Below, in pieces: positions 4,374 to 45,812 of a stretch of DNA of 63,641 nt (position 1 is its first letter; every line of letters starts with the position of its first letter). The notes beneath the pieces are model-generated. The model saw only the letters and a program-made list of their open reading frames with translations, was not told where the DNA came from and did not search any database. Both the position numbers and the translations under genes were made by a program. Source of the stretch: a virus; IMG/VR virus record IMGVR_UViG_3300024502_000002, positions 1 to 63,641 of that record. One strand, given 5' to 3'.

Positions 4374-7303
4374 TCAGTCCACCCAAATAGGCGAATTTTG
4401 CCAGAAGTGAAAGTTCCAACGCTCCAAAAGAGACGAATAGCATTGACTACCGCTGCCGAATCACGAACACCACTTCCGATGATGATGTTGGATGCTGCGG
4501 ATGACCAAACCTGACCTAGCAAGTTCCATTTACAAAAAGTCTTCTTTGTAGAGGCCAGCGGGTCGTAAAACTCGACCTCTCCCCACAGTCCGACAGTGCT
4601 TTTACCAACGGTGGCGGATGCTTGAAACTGAATGTAAGTCCCGGTGGTTTGAACCGGCCCATACGTCCCCAGCGGACCGTAGGCGTAACCGTAGTTTGCC
4701 GAGCCGCTGTCAAACGAACTACCGCCGTTTGAAGAGGTCTGCATTCGGAGAATGAAATTTAGATCAGATGAGCCAATAACGTCCTCAAATTGGAGCATGT
4801 AGTTCCGGTAGCTGCCGCTAAATGAGAAGTCGATATTGGTTGGACTACCACTGATGGTTGTGGTGGAGATGAGAACCCAATTACCGCCACCGCTGCCACT
4901 GGCACTGAGTGTCGTTCCACTCATGGAAAGGCCAGAGCCAAGGGTGATTTCCTCAAAGTCTCCCCCGCCAGATGCCGAGCCACGCCCAAGGAGCTTGGAT
5001 GCTGCGGAGGCCTGCGCCAGATTCGAGAGAGGCAAATCGCCCGTCACATCGGTTGTCAGGTCAATCAGGCCGCGAGTGATCGTCTGCCCGCTGATGGTGA
5101 TGTAGTCTGGAGTGCCGGAAAGGCTTACGTCGCCAGAGTTGCTTCCAGAAAGAGTTCCACTTGCTCCATCCGCAATGGTGATTCCGCTGTTTTGTATCAG
5201 TTTACCAGTTGTGGAATCAAACCGGACAATCGCATTGTCGGTGGCGGATGCAGGACCAACCACATCGCCAGAACCACTAGCTGTTGAGTTGATCGTGATG
5301 GAATCTGTGGATGCGTCGGTAGTGATGGTAATGTTGCTGCCAGCCACCAAGGTCAAAGTGTCGCTGGTTGAGTCTGCAACCACATTGCTTTGGCCACTTA
5401 CCGCAAAGGTAGAAAAGACATTTTGGTCGCCCGAGTTTGTCCCGCTCAAATCAAGCGTGGTCTTCATCGTGGCGGCATCGACTCCTAGCTGAATGGTGCC
5501 GCTGCTGGTTATCGGAGAGCCTGAATCGACTTGGATACCATCGGTTCCGCTGATTGCCACGCTGGTAACACCGGGAGATGGCAAGTAGGCTCCAAGGGTG
5601 TTGCCGGTCAGATACAACCCGGTGCCCACAGTGATTTCCGTAACGGCTGCGCTGGAATCATTTGAGCCAAGCAGGATGGCCGATCCTGACAGGTCCTCAA
5701 GATTCGAGATCGGGAGCTGACCAGTCACATCGGTTGACAGGTCAATTTGCTGCATCTCAATTTGTTGGTCCGTAATGGAGAGATAATCGTAACCCACCGA
5801 AAACAATGTTACATCGCCACTATTTGTGCCAGCGAGGTCGAGCGTCGTTTTCATCGTCGCCGCATCCACGCCAAGCTGAATCGTGCCAGAGGTCGTGATG
5901 GGTGAACCAGAGTCCACCTGAATGCCGTCTGTGCCCGAGATGGCAACGCTGGTGACTGTGCCGGAGCCTCCGCCGCCAGAACCGTTTGCAGCGGCAGTGA
6001 TGCGACCTTTTGAATCCACCGTGATATTGGCAGATGTGTAGCTGCCGGGGGTTACGGCGGTATTTGCCAGCGTCAAAGCCCCAGTATTTGCCAAGGTGGC
6101 ATCACCAGAGATAGACTTGTTCTCGAAGACCGTTCCTGCCGCGTTTGCGACAAGAATTTGGCCGGAAGAAAGGCTGGTGATTGTAACACCTTCGTCGTCC
6201 TTGATATTGCTGCCAAGAGTGGGTCGGATGAAAAAAGTCCCGTTGCTCGCGTGGGCGCTGACAACAGCCAGAACTTGAATGTGCGGATTGGGTGCCGCTG
6301 GCTGAGTCTTGGTCAGGTATCCAGTCGTTGTGGAGGCATAGATGATCTGTCCGTCAGCCCAAGACTCGCCGTAGTTGCCTCCGTTGGTTTGAATGCCACG
6401 GAGCTTGCCAAAAGCGATGACAAAGCCTTCCTCGCCGTTGCTGAGTTCTTCAGCGGTCAGGCCCATGAAGTAGGTGGATGGACCCGTGCCATTCCAAGGC
6501 TGGATAAGCAGCTTGCCGCTGTTGCCATCCGTCCCGCTGAACATGACGGGGACACCTTTGGCAATCGTGGAGCCAGTGCTGTTTTTGACGTGGTAAACGA
6601 CATGCTCGCCAACATGGAGGGCAAATCCGTTAAGCTGAATATCCAGCGTTTCCTCGCCGTTGTTCCACATCATCTGTCCTTGCGTGGACAGCGATCCAGA
6701 TGGCGTCGTGTCCATTGCGATGCTGTTCACGTTCGCAAGGTCGCCAGTGTCAGATTCGGTGATTTGGCCGTTTTGAACCAGTTTCCCAGTCGTTCCGTCG
6801 AAGCGGACCAGAGCATTGTCTGTCGAGGATGCCGGACCAACGACATCGCCACTTCCGGTCGCAGTAATGGTGGTGCCAGTAATCGACAGGCCACTACCAA
6901 CTGTAAGCGAGGTAAGTTTGCTTTGAGATTCGTCCCAAAACACCAGTTTGTCTGAACCTTGATCGTCTGCCGAGATAGCCTGACCAGTGATGGTGAGAAT
7001 GTCTGTAACCGTTGAGTCCAGCGTCACATCGCCTGTATTCGTGCCAGAAAGCGTGCCAGACGCGCCATCGGCAATCGTGATGCCGCTGTTTTGGATGACC
7101 TTGCCGCTCGTCCCATCAAAACGGACAATCTGGTTGTCGAGGGACAGGCTGGAAGAGGTGACATCGCCTGTTCCGCTTACAGGAGTTGAGACATCCACGG
7201 TGATGCTTGGAGCGGCCTCGCCAATGTTCACGATCACATCGCCCGTATCCGTAACCTGCACAGTTGGGGATGTGTCTCCGGTGACGGTGATATTCGGCGT
7301 CAT
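4370..7303 (-). CDS. Repetitive tail fibre/spike protein, 977 aa
   Basis: A glycine/serine/threonine-rich beta-repeat protein. One module (VRFDGTSGKVIQNSG-type, then a SGTNTGDVTL tail) occurs three times, near the N-terminus, near residue 155 and near residue 700. A second module (VAISGTDGIQVDSGSPI through TMKTTLDL) occurs twice about 130 residues apart. The middle has a domain with aromatic and glycine-rich stretches. The last ~150 residues (from GGGNWVLIST) are non-repetitive and probably form the receptor-contact domain. The ATG overlaps the stop of the upstream tail gene. Confidence 0.85.
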   Translation of the reverse strand: MTPNITVTGDTSPTVQVTDTGDVIVNIGEAAPSITVDVSTPVSGTGDVTSSSLSLDNQIVRFDGTSGKVIQNSGITIADGASGTLSGTNTGDVTLDSTVTDILTITGQAISADDQGSDKLVFWDESQSKLTSLTVGSGLSITGTTITATGSGDVVGPASSTDNALVRFDGTTGKLVQNGQITESDTGDLANVNSIAMDTTPSGSLSTQGQMMWNNGEETLDIQLNGFALHVGEHVVYHVKNSTGSTIAKGVPVMFSGTDGNSGKLLIQPWNGTGPSTYFMGLTAEELSNGEEGFVIAFGKLRGIQTNGGNYGESWADGQIIYASTTTGYLTKTQPAAPNPHIQVLAVVSAHASNGTFFIRPTLGSNIKDDEGVTITSLSSGQILVANAAGTVFENKSISGDATLANTGALTLANTAVTPGSYTSANITVDSKGRITAAANGSGGGGSGTVTSVAISGTDGIQVDSGSPITTSGTIQLGVDAATMKTTLDLAGTNSGDVTLFSVGYDYLSITDQQIEMQQIDLSTDVTGQLPISNLEDLSGSAILLGSNDSSAAVTEITVGTGLYLTGNTLGAYLPSPGVTSVAISGTDGIQVDSGSPITSSGTIQLGVDAATMKTTLDLSGTNSGDQNVFSTFAVSGQSNVVADSTSDTLTLVAGSNITITTDASTDSITINSTASGSGDVVGPASATDNAIVRFDSTTGKLIQNSGITIADGASGTLSGSNSGDVSLSGTPDYITISGQTITRGLIDLTTDVTGDLPLSNLAQASAASKLLGRGSASGGGDFEEITLGSGLSMSGTTLSASGSGGGNWVLISTTTISGSPTNIDFSFSGSYRNYMLQFEDVIGSSDLNFILRMQTSSNGGSSFDSGSANYGYAYGPLGTYGPVQTTGTYIQFQASATVGKSTVGLWGEVEFYDPLASTKKTFCKWNLLGQVWSSAASNIIIGSGVRDSAAVVNAIRLFWSVGTFTSGKIRLFGWTE

Positions 7304-13024: not shown

Positions 13025-15292
13025 TCACTGTTTTCTTTGCATCTGATTGGCCTGCATCCGCAATTTCAGAGCATTCTGAGCGGTCTGCTGGGCGAACTTG
13101 GCGTCATTCTGAGCAAGCTGTTGAGCATTCTTTTTGGCGGCAAAATCCAGTTCAAGAGCCTTCTTTTGCACATCAAGAGTGGCGAGTCGTGCCGCCGCAT
13201 CCACGGCCTGACGGTCGGTGGAGAGCATCGGGGCTTCACCCTCCTGTCCAGCTGCCTCTGCCGCTTTACGCTGCTCGGCTTCGAGATGTTTCGCACCGTT
13301 GATGACTGTTTCTCCAAGCTGTTGAAGAGCTTCTTTGTAGATTGGGAAGAGGGGATTGTTTTGCGACACAAACTGCATGTGCTCACCGGCATGAGTCCAT
13401 ATCATTTGCATTTGTGGAATAGAATCCTCAAGCTCAACCTGAAGTTGCTTAATCTGTTCGTTAATCTGCTCAAGAAGATTTAAATGTGCCCCAACATGGA
13501 TGACGTGGTTCTGGTTCGGCTCAATGACGGCTGGCTGACCAAGGCCCATCAGGGCGTTCTCCATGTTCGCAATCTGGAGGTCCATCGGAGGACGCTGACC
13601 GGGCTGCTTCGGAACAAGCATGTTCGCGTAGGCGACATCTGTGTAGGAGGCAAGATAGGTGCGAAGGGCGAGTTGCTGACCATCGGTGTCCAGACGGTCC
13701 ATGACGCTCATTACGGCACCAGCGGCGGTCCTGCGCTCCTGAACACTGCCCTTCCCAAGCCCCTGATTGATTTCGATACCGTCGATGTCCACGGCGTAAA
13801 TCGCTTCCATCGGGACTCCGCGATTCTTGCAGCGTTTGCGGAACTGAAGCACTTCCTTCCAGCCCCCGTGTCCAGCCGGGTAATCCTTGTTGCAGGCGCG
13901 GCGAACAATCTCCTTGAAGTCGTTCTTCCAGCTATCGAAGAAAAGGTCAATACCACCCGTAGCGAGGCGACCCTGAACGGCATTCGCACTCTGGATTTCC
14001 TCGGCGGTCTTAGGCGTCTTGCCGTCCTGACTCATTCCCACACGGAACGAACTGGTCCGCATGTTGAAGATGTTGGTCAGCGAGCCAATGGCTGGAATCA
14101 GGCTTTGCTGAAACGGAACATGTGGCATTTCAAGGAAAGTTGTTCCCTGAGTCACCACATTGTAAGGCCCACGAGGCTGAATCATCTGGTCGATCACCGC
14201 ATCTTCAGACGAAGATTGCAGGGTTGGTGTCGATGCAACAATCGTCTGATCCATGAACTTACAAGTCAGAAGATTCAGCATCACCGAGCCGTTGTGGCCG
14301 TTCCACGCATTGCCGCGAAGGGCGTAGAAGTCACCATTGCTGCCCACGCCGTAGGTGTAGGCCGTGATGAGTTCGCTCATGTGGTTGTAAACGCCCTCAC
14401 AACGATAAAGCCAGTCGCCCTGACCGTCATAACGCCCAATGACATGAGTAATGGTGCCGTCCACTTCAGCCACCCATCCGTGGATTAGCTGGACCGTCGT
14501 GGCGGAAAGACCGCTGAAATAGTCCTGATCCTTGTAGGTTTCCTGCGTTTCCTGCGGATTCGAGGTGTCAGGCGAACGCTGCTGGGCGGTCTTGATTGCC
14601 TCAAGCACGGCATCGGGATTCCAGCCAGCCTTGATAGCTGCATCCCGGTTCTCAATCTTGCGATAAAGCTCGGACGGAAGCATGTCCACCTTGCAAACAA
14701 CGAGGTCCACATCGTTGATGGTCGCCCGAGTGCGGCGAGGGAGTTTCAGGTATTGCAGGTCGTAAACCTTCCAGCGCCAGTCGTATTTGTCCTCACGGAA
14801 CGTAAACGACACACCGAACATGGTGAATTGGTGGACGCAAAGCTGAATGTTGAAGTTGAAGTCACTCCAATTCTTGACCATTCGGGAGATTTCCTCCGAG
14901 ATGATCTGCCCCCATTCGAGGCGCTGTTGCTCGTCCCCGTAGGTGGTCGGAACGCTACCAAACTGGTCAATCGCGTGGAAAAGCTGGATGTAAGGCTCCT
15001 CAACCTCCTTTTGGCTCTGAGTCAGGTAGCCAAAGTTGACGTTGGTGCGACCCGCCATTCCGTGAATGCGGTCCCGGTTGTCGGAAAAAGGCGGATTTCC
15101 GTCCACCTCGGACTGAACGAGCGCCCTTGCTCGCATGGCTTGGAAATCAGCGATAAACAGGCCGTTCCAGACGCTTTGGAGTGCAGACGGGTTCTTAACT
15201 CGATTCCGAAGGATGATTTCGCCGTCCTCTGCATCAACGATGGGCGGAAGAGTCGATGGATTGTTCGGCTGATTAGAAAGCTGCAAGGACAT
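13025..15292 (-). CDS. Portal protein, 755 aa
   Basis: A large portal of the podovirus-like type. The ATG at 15292 (MSLQLSN) is preferred to an upstream start. The order is N-terminal wing, a clip/stem-like middle (residues 330-450), and a long Gln/Ala/Lys-rich helical C-terminus (LDFAAKKNAQQLAQNDAKFA) expected for the barrel inside the head. Portals form the DNA-entry ring and bind terminase and neck proteins. Called from length, composition and head-module position. Confidence 0.75.
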   Translation of the reverse strand: MSLQLSNQPNNPSTLPPIVDAEDGEIILRNRVKNPSALQSVWNGLFIADFQAMRARALVQSEVDGNPPFSDNRDRIHGMAGRTNVNFGYLTQSQKEVEEPYIQLFHAIDQFGSVPTTYGDEQQRLEWGQIISEEISRMVKNWSDFNFNIQLCVHQFTMFGVSFTFREDKYDWRWKVYDLQYLKLPRRTRATINDVDLVVCKVDMLPSELYRKIENRDAAIKAGWNPDAVLEAIKTAQQRSPDTSNPQETQETYKDQDYFSGLSATTVQLIHGWVAEVDGTITHVIGRYDGQGDWLYRCEGVYNHMSELITAYTYGVGSNGDFYALRGNAWNGHNGSVMLNLLTCKFMDQTIVASTPTLQSSSEDAVIDQMIQPRGPYNVVTQGTTFLEMPHVPFQQSLIPAIGSLTNIFNMRTSSFRVGMSQDGKTPKTAEEIQSANAVQGRLATGGIDLFFDSWKNDFKEIVRRACNKDYPAGHGGWKEVLQFRKRCKNRGVPMEAIYAVDIDGIEINQGLGKGSVQERRTAAGAVMSVMDRLDTDGQQLALRTYLASYTDVAYANMLVPKQPGQRPPMDLQIANMENALMGLGQPAVIEPNQNHVIHVGAHLNLLEQINEQIKQLQVELEDSIPQMQMIWTHAGEHMQFVSQNNPLFPIYKEALQQLGETVINGAKHLEAEQRKAAEAAGQEGEAPMLSTDRQAVDAAARLATLDVQKKALELDFAAKKNAQQLAQNDAKFAQQTAQNALKLRMQANQMQRKQ

Positions 15293-16363: not shown

Positions 16364-16771
16364 TCAAGCGGAAAGACGCTGTTTCAACTGGTATTGGCGC
16401 ATCTCACTTTGATCGCAGATTCCTTGAAGCAAGTTCTGCGTGCCCTGCGAAGCCTTCTTCACCGCCTCATCAATCATGCCACAAAGGTCTTTTTCCCCTT
16501 TAAGAATGGCGCGGAAGAAAGGCTCGGGCTTTGTCTCGTCAGGCAGGATGTCGGACATCTTGGACGCCGCGATGTTGATCTTGGCGAGGCTCAACTTCTC
16601 AGTCCCAAGGCCAATCACACGCTCCACGGCGCTGTCGTAGGCCGCTTCATAATCCGGGTAAAGTTTGCCAAGGAACTTATGGTCCTCGAAAAAAGTCGGT
16701 CCTTTGATGACGTTGTGCGCCCGATGAGCAAGGAATTGAAGGGCGCGAAGCTGGGTGATGAGTGAGTCCAT
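16364..16771 (-). CDS. Dps/ferritin-like protein, 135 aa
   Basis: Residues 5-55 match the Dps start: a helix with LQFLAHRAHNVIKGPTFFEDH, then GKLYPDYEAAYDSAVERVIGLG. The spacing of H16/H19, D30/H31 and the acidic pair near 47-51 resembles ferroxidase-site residues of Dps dimers. A further helical half completes a four-helix length. Dps proteins store iron and protect DNA. The gene sits in an accessory region beside unknown small genes. It could also be a ferritin-like protein with another role. Confidence 0.6.
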   Translation of the reverse strand: MDSLITQLRALQFLAHRAHNVIKGPTFFEDHKFLGKLYPDYEAAYDSAVERVIGLGTEKLSLAKINIAASKMSDILPDETKPEPFFRAILKGEKDLCGMIDEAVKKASQGTQNLLQGICDQSEMRQYQLKQRLSA

Positions 16772-17205: not shown

Positions 17206-17221
17206 GAAGAGAACCGTGTCG

Positions 17222-17965
17222 CTACTCCGAACGCTGCGCGTCGGAGAGCTGGGTGTTATGCAGAACGGAAAGAACAGCCCGCCCAAGGTATTCGGTGTAA
17301 GCGGGCGGGATGCACTCTTTCAGCCCCTCGCATGTCATCCAGTCGATGCCGTAGGCGAGCGGGGCGTTTTTCACGCTCTTCGGTTTCATCCCGAGGGCGA
17401 AGCGTTTGGCGCGGCTCGCCTTGCTGGCGGTCGTCACCAGAAGCGGGATTTGCGAGTGGTCGCAGGCGCACGGTGCCGCAATCGGAAAGCTCGTCTCGAA
17501 ATAGCGGTGCCTTTGCGTCCGCAGCCCGAACATCGAGCCGCAGAGCATCACAGGGTTTTCCAGTTCGTGCCGCGCCCCAGCTACGTTCTCGATGATGTAG
17601 GGCTTGCCCAGTTCGCGGAGCATCGCCCGCAGTTGCGGAATCAGCTTCGGATAGTTGGCGCGGTGAGCTTCCGGCGTCAGGTGAGAGTAGCCCTGGCACG
17701 GTGGCGAGGCGTGGATTGCGTCGTATTCGTGGCCATGATCGCGCAGGTATTCTAGGGCATCGGCCAGTATGAAGCGGTGTGGGTTGCGCGGTTGCGGTTC
17801 GATGTCCACGCCTGTTATATCGAAGCCCGCCCGAGCGTATCCGGCCCCCGCGCCGCCTTCGCAGCAGAAAAGGTCGAGCAAACGGAAAGACGGAGCATAA
17901 CAAGTCGCCAGAGGCAACGAGCCGCAGCCGTCCGTTTTCGATGGGTTCTCAGCGAGATTTATCAT
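17222..17965 (-). CDS. DNA (cytosine-5) methyltransferase, 247 aa
   Basis: Motif I (LLDLFCCEGGAGAGYARAG, residues 29-47), motif IV with the catalytic Cys (ASPPCQGYS, C90), motif VI (ENVAGA, 126-131) and motif VIII (QRHRYFE, 151-157) are all present. It ends in the G..ECIPPAYTEYLG pattern typical of compact phage enzymes. The target-recognition region is very short. It transfers a methyl group from S-adenosylmethionine to carbon 5 of cytosine, probably to hide phage DNA from restriction. No partner nuclease is seen. Confidence 0.9.
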   Translation of the reverse strand: MINLAENPSKTDGCGSLPLATCYAPSFRLLDLFCCEGGAGAGYARAGFDITGVDIEPQPRNPHRFILADALEYLRDHGHEYDAIHASPPCQGYSHLTPEAHRANYPKLIPQLRAMLRELGKPYIIENVAGARHELENPVMLCGSMFGLRTQRHRYFETSFPIAAPCACDHSQIPLLVTTASKASRAKRFALGMKPKSVKNAPLAYGIDWMTCEGLKECIPPAYTEYLGRAVLSVLHNTQLSDAQRSE

Positions 17966-18007
17966 GGTTAGTATTCTGTGCGGCTCGCGCCTCAGCTTGG
18001 GTGTTCA

Positions 18008-18075
18008 GGGCACTCACGAAAGTCTTTCGGCCTGCGTGAGTGCCCGTCACAGTGCGTTCACAGTGCGTTCACAGT
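18008..18075 (-). repeat. Strong hairpin and 11-base tandem repeats
   Basis: An 11-pair stem (GGGCACTCACG 18008-18018 with CGTGAGTGCCC 18035-18045) is followed by 2.6 copies of the 11-mer TCACAGTGCGT (18047-18075), the last of which includes the stop codon of the gene at 18069. The stem could end or protect the upstream message, but no T-run follows, so it is not a typical terminator. It lies upstream of the methyltransferase start. Confidence 0.6.
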
Positions 18076-18467
18076 TTCAGGCCGTCGGCGGTGGGTTCGA
18101 TCTTCGTGTTGCTCGGGTCTTTGGAGTTCGGATACGGGTTTTCCTGTGCTCCTGGGTTTTCTTCGTTGATGGCTTTTAGGTCCATCCCGAGCCACATCAC
18201 TGCCTCTTGCAGCTTAGTGACGCAGATGGAGCGTTCACGGCTTGCACGAGGGTTATCATCAGACGTGAGCCTTTCGCGCTTCGTGTCAGATGCGAGTTTG
18301 AGGCGTTGGATGATGGCGTCGATGTCGCGGCGCAGTTCTTTGTCTTGGATGATGGCGGTTTCGATTGCTGTCATGTTGTCGTTTGCGTTTTGGTTTTTAC
18401 TTCGGCAGCCTGGGGTGCCGTGCCCTGAACCATCGGCTGATGCCAACGGCTCGAAAGTATCTGTCAT
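18069..18467 (-). CDS. Acb2/Tad1 hairpin-domain protein (candidate signal-nucleotide sponge)
   Basis: The core ASRERSICVTKLQEAVMWLG (about residues 79-98) on two helices, and the tail NPYPNSKDPSNTKIEPTADG, match the pattern I associate with the Acb2/Tad1 hairpin family. Members bind cyclic di-/trinucleotides or gcADPR and so disarm CBASS or Thoeris defence. I infer the same role. The start at 18467 is in an ATGA overlap with the upstream repressor-like gene; a shorter start at 18374 is possible. Neighbours are a cytosine methyltransferase and a Cro/XRE-like protein, consistent with a defence-evasion and regulation block. Confidence 0.65.
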   Translation of the reverse strand: MTDTFEPLASADGSGHGTPGCRSKNQNANDNMTAIETAIIQDKELRRDIDAIIQRLKLASDTKRERLTSDDNPRASRERSICVTKLQEAVMWLGMDLKAINEENPGAQENPYPNSKDPSNTKIEPTADGLKL

Positions 18468-18778
18468 GTAAGCGGAGGTCTATCGCTCGCCGTCGGCATA
18501 GCCGGGTCGTTCAACCTCGCATCCACCTTTTCCAAGTAGCACTCCTTCATCGGATACTTGCCCTGAAGAATGCGGAAGATGAACTGGGGTTGAAAACCAA
18601 TCACCTTGGCGAGGTGGCTTTTTGACCAGCCTTGGCGCATGCGGAGCTGTTCAATGGCGTTGATGCGCGTTTGATTGGCTTTTTTTAGCAGTTCGGCAGC
18701 TTGGCTCTCAAGATTGGAGGCGCAAACAAACTCAGTGTGAATGAACGGGTGTTGGGACTGGATGTTGGGGAGGTTCAT
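18464..18778 (-). CDS. XRE/Cro-type helix-turn-helix regulator, 104 aa
   Basis: Residues 43-75 contain a five-helix XRE-like pattern (LRMRQGWSKSHLAKVIGFQPQFIFRILQG). The N-terminal 40 residues are probably for oligomerisation. The gene may repress a local promoter. No integrase accompanies it, so it does not by itself imply lysogeny. Confidence 0.75.
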   Translation of the reverse strand: MNLPNIQSQHPFIHTEFVCASNLESQAAELLKKANQTRINAIEQLRMRQGWSKSHLAKVIGFQPQFIFRILQGKYPMKECYLEKVDARLNDPAMPTASDRPPLT

Positions 18779-18790
18779 ATTGTGTTGCGA

Positions 18791-19516
18791 TTAACTATAT
18801 GGTGGTAAATCAGCTTGGTCAAGAACCCATCTAGGACTTTTTAGAATCATTTCGTTGTCACCTTCCAACAAGAAGCGGTCCCTGTGTCTTCCAAGAAAGA
18901 CTCTTTTCCTTTTGGCTAAAACGTCGATAATTTCATCGTCTATAAGAGATGAGTTATATTCAGCTACAGCATGTATGAAAATTTCATCAATAGATGCCTG
19001 AAGAGCAAGCAATCTACGGTCCGATATAATCTTGTCCAAAACCACATCGGCATTATCTACACTTTTATGAATCTCCCAAAAAATATCAATAAATCCCTTC
19101 ATCGCTTTTTCAGACCTTGATGCCAAGGTTGCCATCAAAGTATCGAATGAACGCTTCTTCTTACCCCTTTTGCCTTTGCATAGACCCCTAGCGTGAGCGT
19201 CCTTAATGTTTTGAACATTGGTTCCTAATTCAAGATGGTCTGGATTTGTGCAGACCTTATTGTCGCAGCGGTGCATTACGACCATACCATTAGGTATGTC
19301 TCCTTTATGGATCATATAGGACAACCTGTGGGCCAATACGTTTCTATTCTCCACCTTGAGTGTGCCATACCCATTTACCAACGACCCCTTCCAGCCCCAG
19401 CATTGACCTAATCCGGCATAATGATGATTAGACTGATCTGGCATGACGCCAGAGTCCCTATCAAGGTTGTAAAAATACAATTCACTACCATGCTCGATGA
19501 TTTTGTTTTTATCCAT
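18791..19516 (-). CDS. HNH homing endonuclease, 241 aa
   Basis: Shows the pattern CWGWKGSLVNGYGTLKV, then LAHRLSYMIHKGDIPNG, VMHRCDNKVCTNPDHLELGT and N..DAHARG, the classic freestanding phage HNH endonuclease with H-N-H residues in the MHRCD...CTNPDHL segment. The C-terminal ~110 residues are helical and carry no known motif. A/T content is higher than in neighbours, a sign of recent transfer. The start overlaps the end of the next upstream gene. Confidence 0.85.
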   Translation of the reverse strand: MDKNKIIEHGSELYFYNLDRDSGVMPDQSNHHYAGLGQCWGWKGSLVNGYGTLKVENRNVLAHRLSYMIHKGDIPNGMVVMHRCDNKVCTNPDHLELGTNVQNIKDAHARGLCKGKRGKKKRSFDTLMATLASRSEKAMKGFIDIFWEIHKSVDNADVVLDKIISDRRLLALQASIDEIFIHAVAEYNSSLIDDEIIDVLAKRKRVFLGRHRDRFLLEGDNEMILKSPRWVLDQADLPPYS

Positions 19517-45440: not shown

Positions 45441-45812
45441 ATGAAACTCTATACTCTCGCACGCACACGGTCGGAATGCTTCGGACAAGGAGATTTCCGT
45501 GATGTCCAGTCGATCAGCCGGTTTAAGGACCAGTTTCCGCCTGTTTTCCTAAGTGAGGACGCCGCGAAGGAATGGCGGGAGCAGATCACCAACCCCCTGA
45601 CCAACGACGACCTTTTGGAGCGTTTTCATTGGTGTGAGTGTCAAGTGATTGAACTTGATCTTCAACGCGGCTCGTTCATCACTGAGGTAGAGAAGGCTGC
45701 TATCGCGTTTGCGAATGCCTTTACCGCCGAAAACGAGGACGCTGCGGAGGTTGAAAAGACCGTCCATGCCTTGATTGGGAGTCTGGAAGCAAATGGATGG
45801 AAGGCCGCTTAG
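45441..45812 (+). CDS. Hypothetical acidic protein, 123 aa
   Basis: An acidic helical protein (WREQITNPLTNDDLLERFH, IAFANAFTAENEDAAEVEK). It ends the plus-strand block, overlapping the last four bases of the convergent minus-strand gene. No family recognised. Confidence 0.65.
   Translation: MKLYTLARTRSECFGQGDFRDVQSISRFKDQFPPVFLSEDAAKEWREQITNPLTNDDLLERFHWCECQVIELDLQRGSFITEVEKAAIAFANAFTAENEDAAEVEKTVHALIGSLEANGWKAA

Follow-up and report, generated by a model that had tools for sequence, protein, structure and literature searches.

Integrons are known for supplying bacteria with resistance genes, and their exchangeable cassettes are the kind of mobile unit by which antibiotic resistance spreads. 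Integrons and CALINs have also been described in phages, where 21 of 10,705 GenBank phage genomes were positive, and the phage integrons of that survey included five methyltransferase cassettes for which a counter-defence role was proposed (Qi et al. 2023, excerpts of PMC9892861). The closest described relatives of the protein considered here are the Acb2 and Tad1 sponges, which form hexamers and bind cyclic nucleotides or gcADPR. In Acb2 a short N-terminal helix precedes two long helices; Tad1 possesses an N-terminal antiparallel β-sheet domain, and its ligand pocket is partly closed by the C-terminal tail of the protomer (excerpts of PMC12043709). RyDEP, a phage glycosidase with anti-Thoeris activity, destroys 2'/3'cADPR and has the ligand residues H75, W78, H100, and D117; its relatives may sequester the signal instead (excerpts of PMC13232231).

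We analyzed a stretch of 63,641 nucleotides (IMG/VR record IMGVR_UViG_3300024502_000002, positions 1 to 63,641; hereafter the window) that was classed as a virus record in the search database. It carries a small hairpin gene. With fair confidence we read this gene as cargo for counter-defence that is borne by an integron gene cassette within the genome of a tailed phage, and its protein as one that probably sequesters a nucleotide immune signal. The computed basis of this reading consists of the family relation, the attC structure with its covariation, the cassette ends, the comparison of an interrupted with an uninterrupted site, and the integrases of relatives; from it we infer the oligomer, its ligand, the sequestration, the role of the tail, the benefit to the phage, and IntI as the cause of movement. 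The cassette setting is both firmer and more interesting than the function of the hairpin protein.

Family relation and start of the hairpin protein

A minus-strand ORF at 18069-18467 had been proposed in a sequence-only reading as a candidate anti-CBASS/anti-Thoeris sponge. This ORF was present, encoded 132 amino acids, and contained both motifs quoted in that reading. Relatives were obtained far above chance, with 145 stretches in IMG/VR (80 kept), 10 genome contigs that were mostly Bacteroidales MAGs, and 6 records of phages, among them crAss-like cr111_1, Bacteroides phage BK735P4, and Tenacibaculum phage Gundel_1. Removal of 95%-identical copies reduced 90 loci to 70 sequences, 48 of which made up the alignment (A2); a relative with an internal stop (L046) was dropped from the set, and L091 is the window itself. 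A relative in L001 (97% identical) differed from the window gene by 19 synonymous codon differences and 4 conservative amino-acid changes.

Comparison with the relatives placed the conserved portion of the ORF at residues 36-132. Residues 1-31 were seldom matched (of 70 sequences, 2 to 9 had letters in the columns of residues 6-26), and the stretch matching them contained an in-frame stop in four relatives (L009, L035, L036, and L037). The first 31 codons of the ORF as listed are attC sequence and leader, partly beyond the cassette; the leader upstream of Met32 is A-rich, and the upstream ATG of the 132-residue ORF is not part of the mobile cassette, whose first position is 18429. Because of the scarcity of counterparts, the stops in four relatives, and the position of the upstream ATG, we take Met32 at 18374 as the probable native start, which would give a protein of 101 amino acids encoded by 18069-18374 on the minus strand.

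The window protein matched the Pfam family Acb2_Tad1_hairpin (PF24729) at 26.3 bits (E 8.4e-06), just under the cut-off of 27, whereas 47 of the 48 aligned family members matched at E ≤ 0.01 (best E 3.1e-09). In two whole-record scans, in which T4 and PaP2 served as positive controls (2/2), PF24729 exceeded its cut-off in 5/5 and 4/5 records of relatives. Solved Tad1 chains were also among the PDB matches of the family profile (best E 1.2e-05). Direct identification as Acb2 or Tad1 by profile comparison was rejected, as T4 Acb2 aligned over only 18 columns (probability 49.9) and PaP2 Acb2 (p26) gave no match to the family profile; Acb2 proteins are themselves mutually distant, T4 Vs.4 reaching PaP2 p26 at E 0.026 only. 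The helix-2 motif T-K-L-x-E-A-x-M-W is common to the window protein and T4 Acb2 (Vs.4), and [SC]RE...TKLQE..MWLG is common to the window protein and Tad1 8kbb, with the sequence match nearer to Tad1 than to Acb2.

The AlphaFold model contained helices at residues 34-59 and 77-103 (132-residue numbering; pLDDT about 76-98 in these parts) and a low-confidence tail, so that the two long antiparallel helices and the helix-2 motif of the PF24729 family are both predicted to be present. A Foldseek search with this model returned nothing at E ≤ 0.001. T4 Vs.4 (7uq2) was ranked 32 (Z 7.8, rmsd 2.0, 62 aligned), tied with unrelated, ordinary hairpins, and the absence of Tad1 chains from the best 50 fold matches listed carries no weight. 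The fold search was non-discriminating because the protein is a two-helix hairpin, as expected. Judged by its sequence matches, membership of the Acb2/Tad1 hairpin superfamily holds. The earlier family assignment thus stood at the superfamily level, through Pfam, the PDB, and the relatives, but not for a typical Acb2 or a typical Tad1, since N-terminal elements were not predicted: the model has no helix before residue 34, where a start at Met32 would leave hardly any space for one, and it contains no strand and no β domain, for which the 101-residue form has no region.

The protein is instead a distinct subfamily, a bare helical hairpin followed by an almost invariant C-terminal tail of 23 residues (110-132, NPYPNSKDPSNTKIEPTADGLKL). 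P111, Y112, and S115 occurred in 70/70 sequences, T126 in 69, L130 in 68, and A127 and D128 in 67. The tail had been taken as a feature of the known family, which was not borne out for T4 Acb2; this protein ends 11 residues past its MW pair and has nothing similar. By analogy with the tail that partly closes the Tad1 pocket, the invariant tail may take part in the ligand pocket, replacing the missing N-terminal elements.

A family-profile search of 298 loci provided 127 distinct ORFs, and in 22 of them more than 45 residues separated the first ATG from the hairpin domain. Eight of these 22 fused an RyR-like N-terminal domain to the hairpin module; RyR exceeded the Pfam cut-off in all six of these that were submitted, and the residues H, W, H, and D were present at the exact spacing of 0, 3, 25, and 42 in 8/8. 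This is the spacing of H75/W78/H100/D117 in RyDEP (excerpts of PMC13232231). The RyR domain, the hairpin, and the tail were seen as single ORFs in L041, L274, L275, L261, L088/L231, L189, and L250. A separate RyR reading frame in L009, read by eye from the sequence, ends just before the hairpin cassette. The RyR domain is thus fused or adjacent in relatives, whereas the window protein itself lacks it. Such fusions are possibly two-signal or enzyme-plus-sponge proteins, and by association they tie the hairpin module to nucleotide immune signals in general rather than to a particular ligand. The literature listings that we searched, mostly of open-access papers, contained no report of an RyR-hairpin fusion, and the terms "hairpin" and "fused" occur 0 times in the RyDEP paper (PMC13232231).

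The small Acb2/Tad1-type hairpin probably assembles into an oligomer that would trap a nucleotide immune signal, which is probably either a cyclic nucleotide of CBASS or an ADP-ribose signal of Thoeris, and we consider signal sequestration by this protein likely. An unlikely alternative, although the strongest that we considered, is that the gene does travel on an integron cassette but does not encode a sponge, the fold serving for oligomerization only and the tail binding a host protein or a nucleic acid. The fold search showed a helical hairpin to be a common arrangement, and the tail, rather than the helices, is the most constant part of the protein and is unknown in characterized families; moreover, the module is also joined to DUF1508 (L067) and to Phage_gp49_66 (L197), domains without a known immune role. 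Against this, the sequence matches the Acb2/Tad1 family and not other hairpins, and the eight RyR fusions retain the complete ligand quartet. We therefore favor the sponge reading. The partner in L197 (N4 gp49 / Sf6 gene 66; PF13876, E 4e-27) belongs to a family without a stated function.

Two cassettes and an uninterrupted site

The edges of the cassettes are long imperfect palindromes, and three attC-type sites on the minus strand, all in one orientation, bound two cassettes that carry the hairpin protein and a cytosine methyltransferase. The first site, attC1 (18424-18512), scored 98.1 bits (E 2.7e-26) with model R2, in whose training set it was included, and its R' box is GTTCAGG at 18424-18430. 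Cassette A (17901-18429, minus strand, 529 bp) contains the hairpin gene, and its start box GTTCAGG is complementary at 7/7 positions to its end box CCTGAAC (18003-18009). An inverted repeat at 18008-18045, 3' of the hairpin gene and within cassette A, was kept in L001, L005, L035, and L009. The second site, attC2 (17895-18006), was outside the training set and scored 30.8 bits (E 1.6e-06), with GTTATGC at 17895-17901 as R' box. Cassette B (17214-17900, minus strand, 687 bp) contains the gene of a C5 cytosine methyltransferase, and here also the ends GTTATGC and GCATAAC (17255-17261) are complementary at 7/7 positions. The third site, attC3 (17208-17258), is short and scored 13.8 bits (window-wide E 0.17), but it lies exactly where the cassette must end and corresponds to the uninterrupted site L048:1022-1072 (20.3 bits). 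An unfiltered model-2 scan of the window ranked attC1, attC2, the reverse strand of attC1, and attC3, in this order.

The methyltransferase ORF as listed (17222-17965, minus strand, 247 amino acids) matched phrog_363 (E 8.5e-38) and reached 20.5 bits with Pfam DNA_methylase (PF00145), just under the cut-off of 22. The opening 21-22 codons of this ORF belong to attC2, which probably places the native start deeper within it. The other neighbor, an XRE-type HTH gene (18464-18778, minus strand), gave weak matches to HTH_31/HTH_3 in Pfam and had its 3' end rewritten by the inserted attC1. Both neighbors named in the sequence-only reading were therefore present. The counter-defence island of 1.5 kb in which that reading had placed them was retained in part: the hairpin gene and the methyltransferase form one block, which measures about 1.25 kb in two cassettes, whereas the XRE gene is resident and outside it, because L048 has the HTH gene without the methyltransferase and hairpin genes before the next gene. 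An HNH endonuclease (18791-19516, minus strand; HNH_3, E 1.4e-12) lies directly upstream of the HTH gene. Searches for terminator or promoter signals yielded none beyond chance, and a tRNA search found none.

The contig L048 provided the uninterrupted counterpart of this site. Its flanking genes were 82-90% identical to those of the window at the nucleotide level and were shared on both sides of the block, and DNA comparison showed the HTH gene to be followed directly by the next resident gene, with the methyltransferase and hairpin genes absent. The L048 site reads GGGATGAAC then GCCCAGCTCTCCGACGCGCAGCGTTCGGAG, whereas the window at the same place reads GAGGTTGAAC, the block, GCATAAC, and then ACCCAGCTCTCCGACGCGCAGCGTTCGGAG. 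The difference of 1,254 bases (18509 to 17255) begins and ends at the AAC core. The residues QLSDAQRSE, which end the L048 HTH protein, now form the last 9 residues of the window methyltransferase ORF, and the window HTH protein has acquired a new C-terminal end read from attC1; this exchange of endings proves the order of parts. An attC-type site at the 3' end of the resident HTH gene would have been the recombination point through which the two-cassette block entered, although the difference may reflect a gain of the block in the window or its loss from L048.

The common bottom-strand integron reaction uses the R' box. The exchange point between the window and L048 is the R'' box, and because the junction lies there rather than in the usual R', a top-strand reaction or an exchange between homologous attC sites possibly lies behind the block. 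The top-strand reaction is reported as rarer (excerpts of PMC9892861). The cassette A unit also occurs elsewhere in L001, with 92% nucleotide identity over 510 bp and flanks that correspond to window positions 45777 and 45803, and L005 has a second copy of the edge of the cassette unit after the hairpin gene. L048 possesses its own hairpin homologue at another location (5974-6279; about 52% identical), just before structural genes.

The window contained a DnaB helicase, an exonuclease, and an ORF resembling a terminase, with 24% identity to that of Akkermansia phage Chambord (E 3e-4). Most structural genes received no name from PHROGs or Pfam, and the large ORF at 13025-15292 had no match among phages. 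In principle, the array-bearing viral contigs could be bacterial integron fragments misfiled as virus, which would render the phage link spurious; some of the records have a length of no more than 12.5 kb (L191) or 5.8 kb (L051), and such arrays occur in bacterial chromosomes. We regard this as very improbable, given the terminase-like ORF, helicase, and exonuclease of the window, the genes that flank the block on both sides and are shared with L048, and the terminase (phrog_2, E 1e-07) of the integrase-bearing contig L443. The contig of L003 gave a match to an internal virion protein. A ferritin-like ORF in the same gene row of the window (16364-16771, minus strand) exceeded the PF00210 cut-off and has a 90% identical protein in L048.

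attC-type sites and integron integrases

A first covariance model, built from six edge copies, detected sites arranged in series and with a common orientation in L005, L191, and L051, together with others in L003, L004, L028, L031, L035, L333, and L321. The alignment of 31 sites contained compensatory changes in 17 of 23 base pairs, and it has the character expected of attC, an imperfect palindrome kept by structure more than by sequence. Its covariation was 0.339, compared to 0.102 for shuffled and at most 0.081 for slid alignments, figures that are favored because the alignment was fitted to the model. Among 31 control loci (435 kb), no score rose above 20.6 bits. A loose collection pattern for attC was too unspecific, as only L333 and L321 of the 80 loci that it covered had real sites by the model. 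By the same model an attC stood beside the hairpin gene in 10 of 90 loci, with the window as one more, and therefore most hairpin relatives are not visibly on cassettes.

The textbook integron box consensus is RYYYAAC / GTTRRRY. The window boxes GTTATGC and GTTCAGG fit it incompletely, GTTAGGC, GTTAGAT, and GTTGGCC are present in L191, and in the present set of sites R boxes of the form GTTCNNN were as frequent as the textbook GTTRRRY. In an integron the start of a cassette is complementary to the 5' box of its own attC, since the two meet in the free circular cassette. End boxes were complementary at 7/7 positions in 38 of 45 neighboring site pairs (less than 1,500 bases apart; a number of weak sites and the overlapping copies of one contig excluded), whereas 20,000 shuffles averaged 4.1 such pairs and never exceeded 13; the 45 pairs are not all independent, because several hairpin cassettes (window, L435, L440, and L001) share one origin.

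The window had 0 matches to PF00589 or TIGR02249 and thus no tyrosine recombinase, so it does not encode the integrase of a complete integron, and the integrase for the block would have been supplied from elsewhere. The hairpin cassette is, however, present in arrays with integron integrases in other viral contigs. Of 16 records examined, four had a TIGR02249 match over the NCBIfam cut-off (G021, G003, and the near-copies G014 and G015; 326-355 bits), and G002 (260 bits) and G017 (251 bits) had one just under it; the match in G020 was trivial (14 bits). The IntI of G003 had 46-48% identity with the enzymes of class 3 and of Gemmatirosa, and that of the L005 contig was 46.4% identical to class 3 IntI3 over 94% of its length, although it sits in a viral contig. 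An ordinary insertion of a moron or operon, with palindromes that are transcription terminators or regulatory hairpins, can hardly explain the block. The sites do occupy intergenic positions and have strong folds, and attC-like hairpins can act as weak terminators, but the cassette-specific end complementarity (on which we dismissed this option) is unexpected of terminators, all sites follow the gene orientation, six of the 16 records have integrases at 251-355 bits with IntI similar to class 3/Gemmatirosa enzymes, and the control loci gave nothing above the stated score.

Cassette cargo in phages

The attC arrays and methyltransferase cassettes are common to our contigs and to those of the published survey, whereas the present set adds metagenomic phages, a recurring hairpin cassette of the sponge family, a Lar-type cassette, and an uninterrupted site (compared with excerpts of Qi et al. 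2023, PMC9892861). A sponge-family integron cassette was not among the reports in the literature listings that we searched, which again were mostly of open-access papers. In the window, the cytosine methyltransferase of cassette B would mask phage DNA from restriction. More generally, some phages might use integrons as interchangeable counter-defence arsenals, swapping anti-immune tools gene by gene, with the sponge, DNA methyltransferases, and Lar-type alleviation circulating as single-gene cassettes via attC and some phages having their own integrase; for us the arguments for and against this proposal are evenly balanced. With the recurring sponge-family cassette, the uninterrupted site, and the integrases of related viral contigs, phage counter-defence would become a mobile, cassette-by-cassette repertoire that could be tested by existing recombination and plaque assays. 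The RyR fusions link two anti-immune families and predict the class of ligand.

We scanned 29 further cassette ORFs, leaving aside five cassettes with the hairpin gene and reading frames shorter than about 50 amino acids, and obtained Pfam matches in four. These were an N6_N4_Mtase cassette in L004, next to the hairpin cassette; an MT-A70 cassette in L191; a Lar-type restriction-alleviation cassette at L437:9996-10494 in the array of L003 (PF14354 over cut-off); and a cassette for a PAPS_reduct-like protein of 288 amino acids at L435:2567-3615 in the array of L005. With the window methyltransferase included and hairpins set aside, DNA modification or restriction alleviation accounts for 4 of 5 recognizable cargo genes, which is a small number. 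A methyltransferase beside the hairpin gene is not a rule, as a homologue of the window enzyme was found in 0/90 loci and the one in L004 is different. In the 12.5-kb viral contig L191, a stretch of about 4.6 kb contained 14 or more attC-type sites, and many of its cassettes had very short ORFs only.
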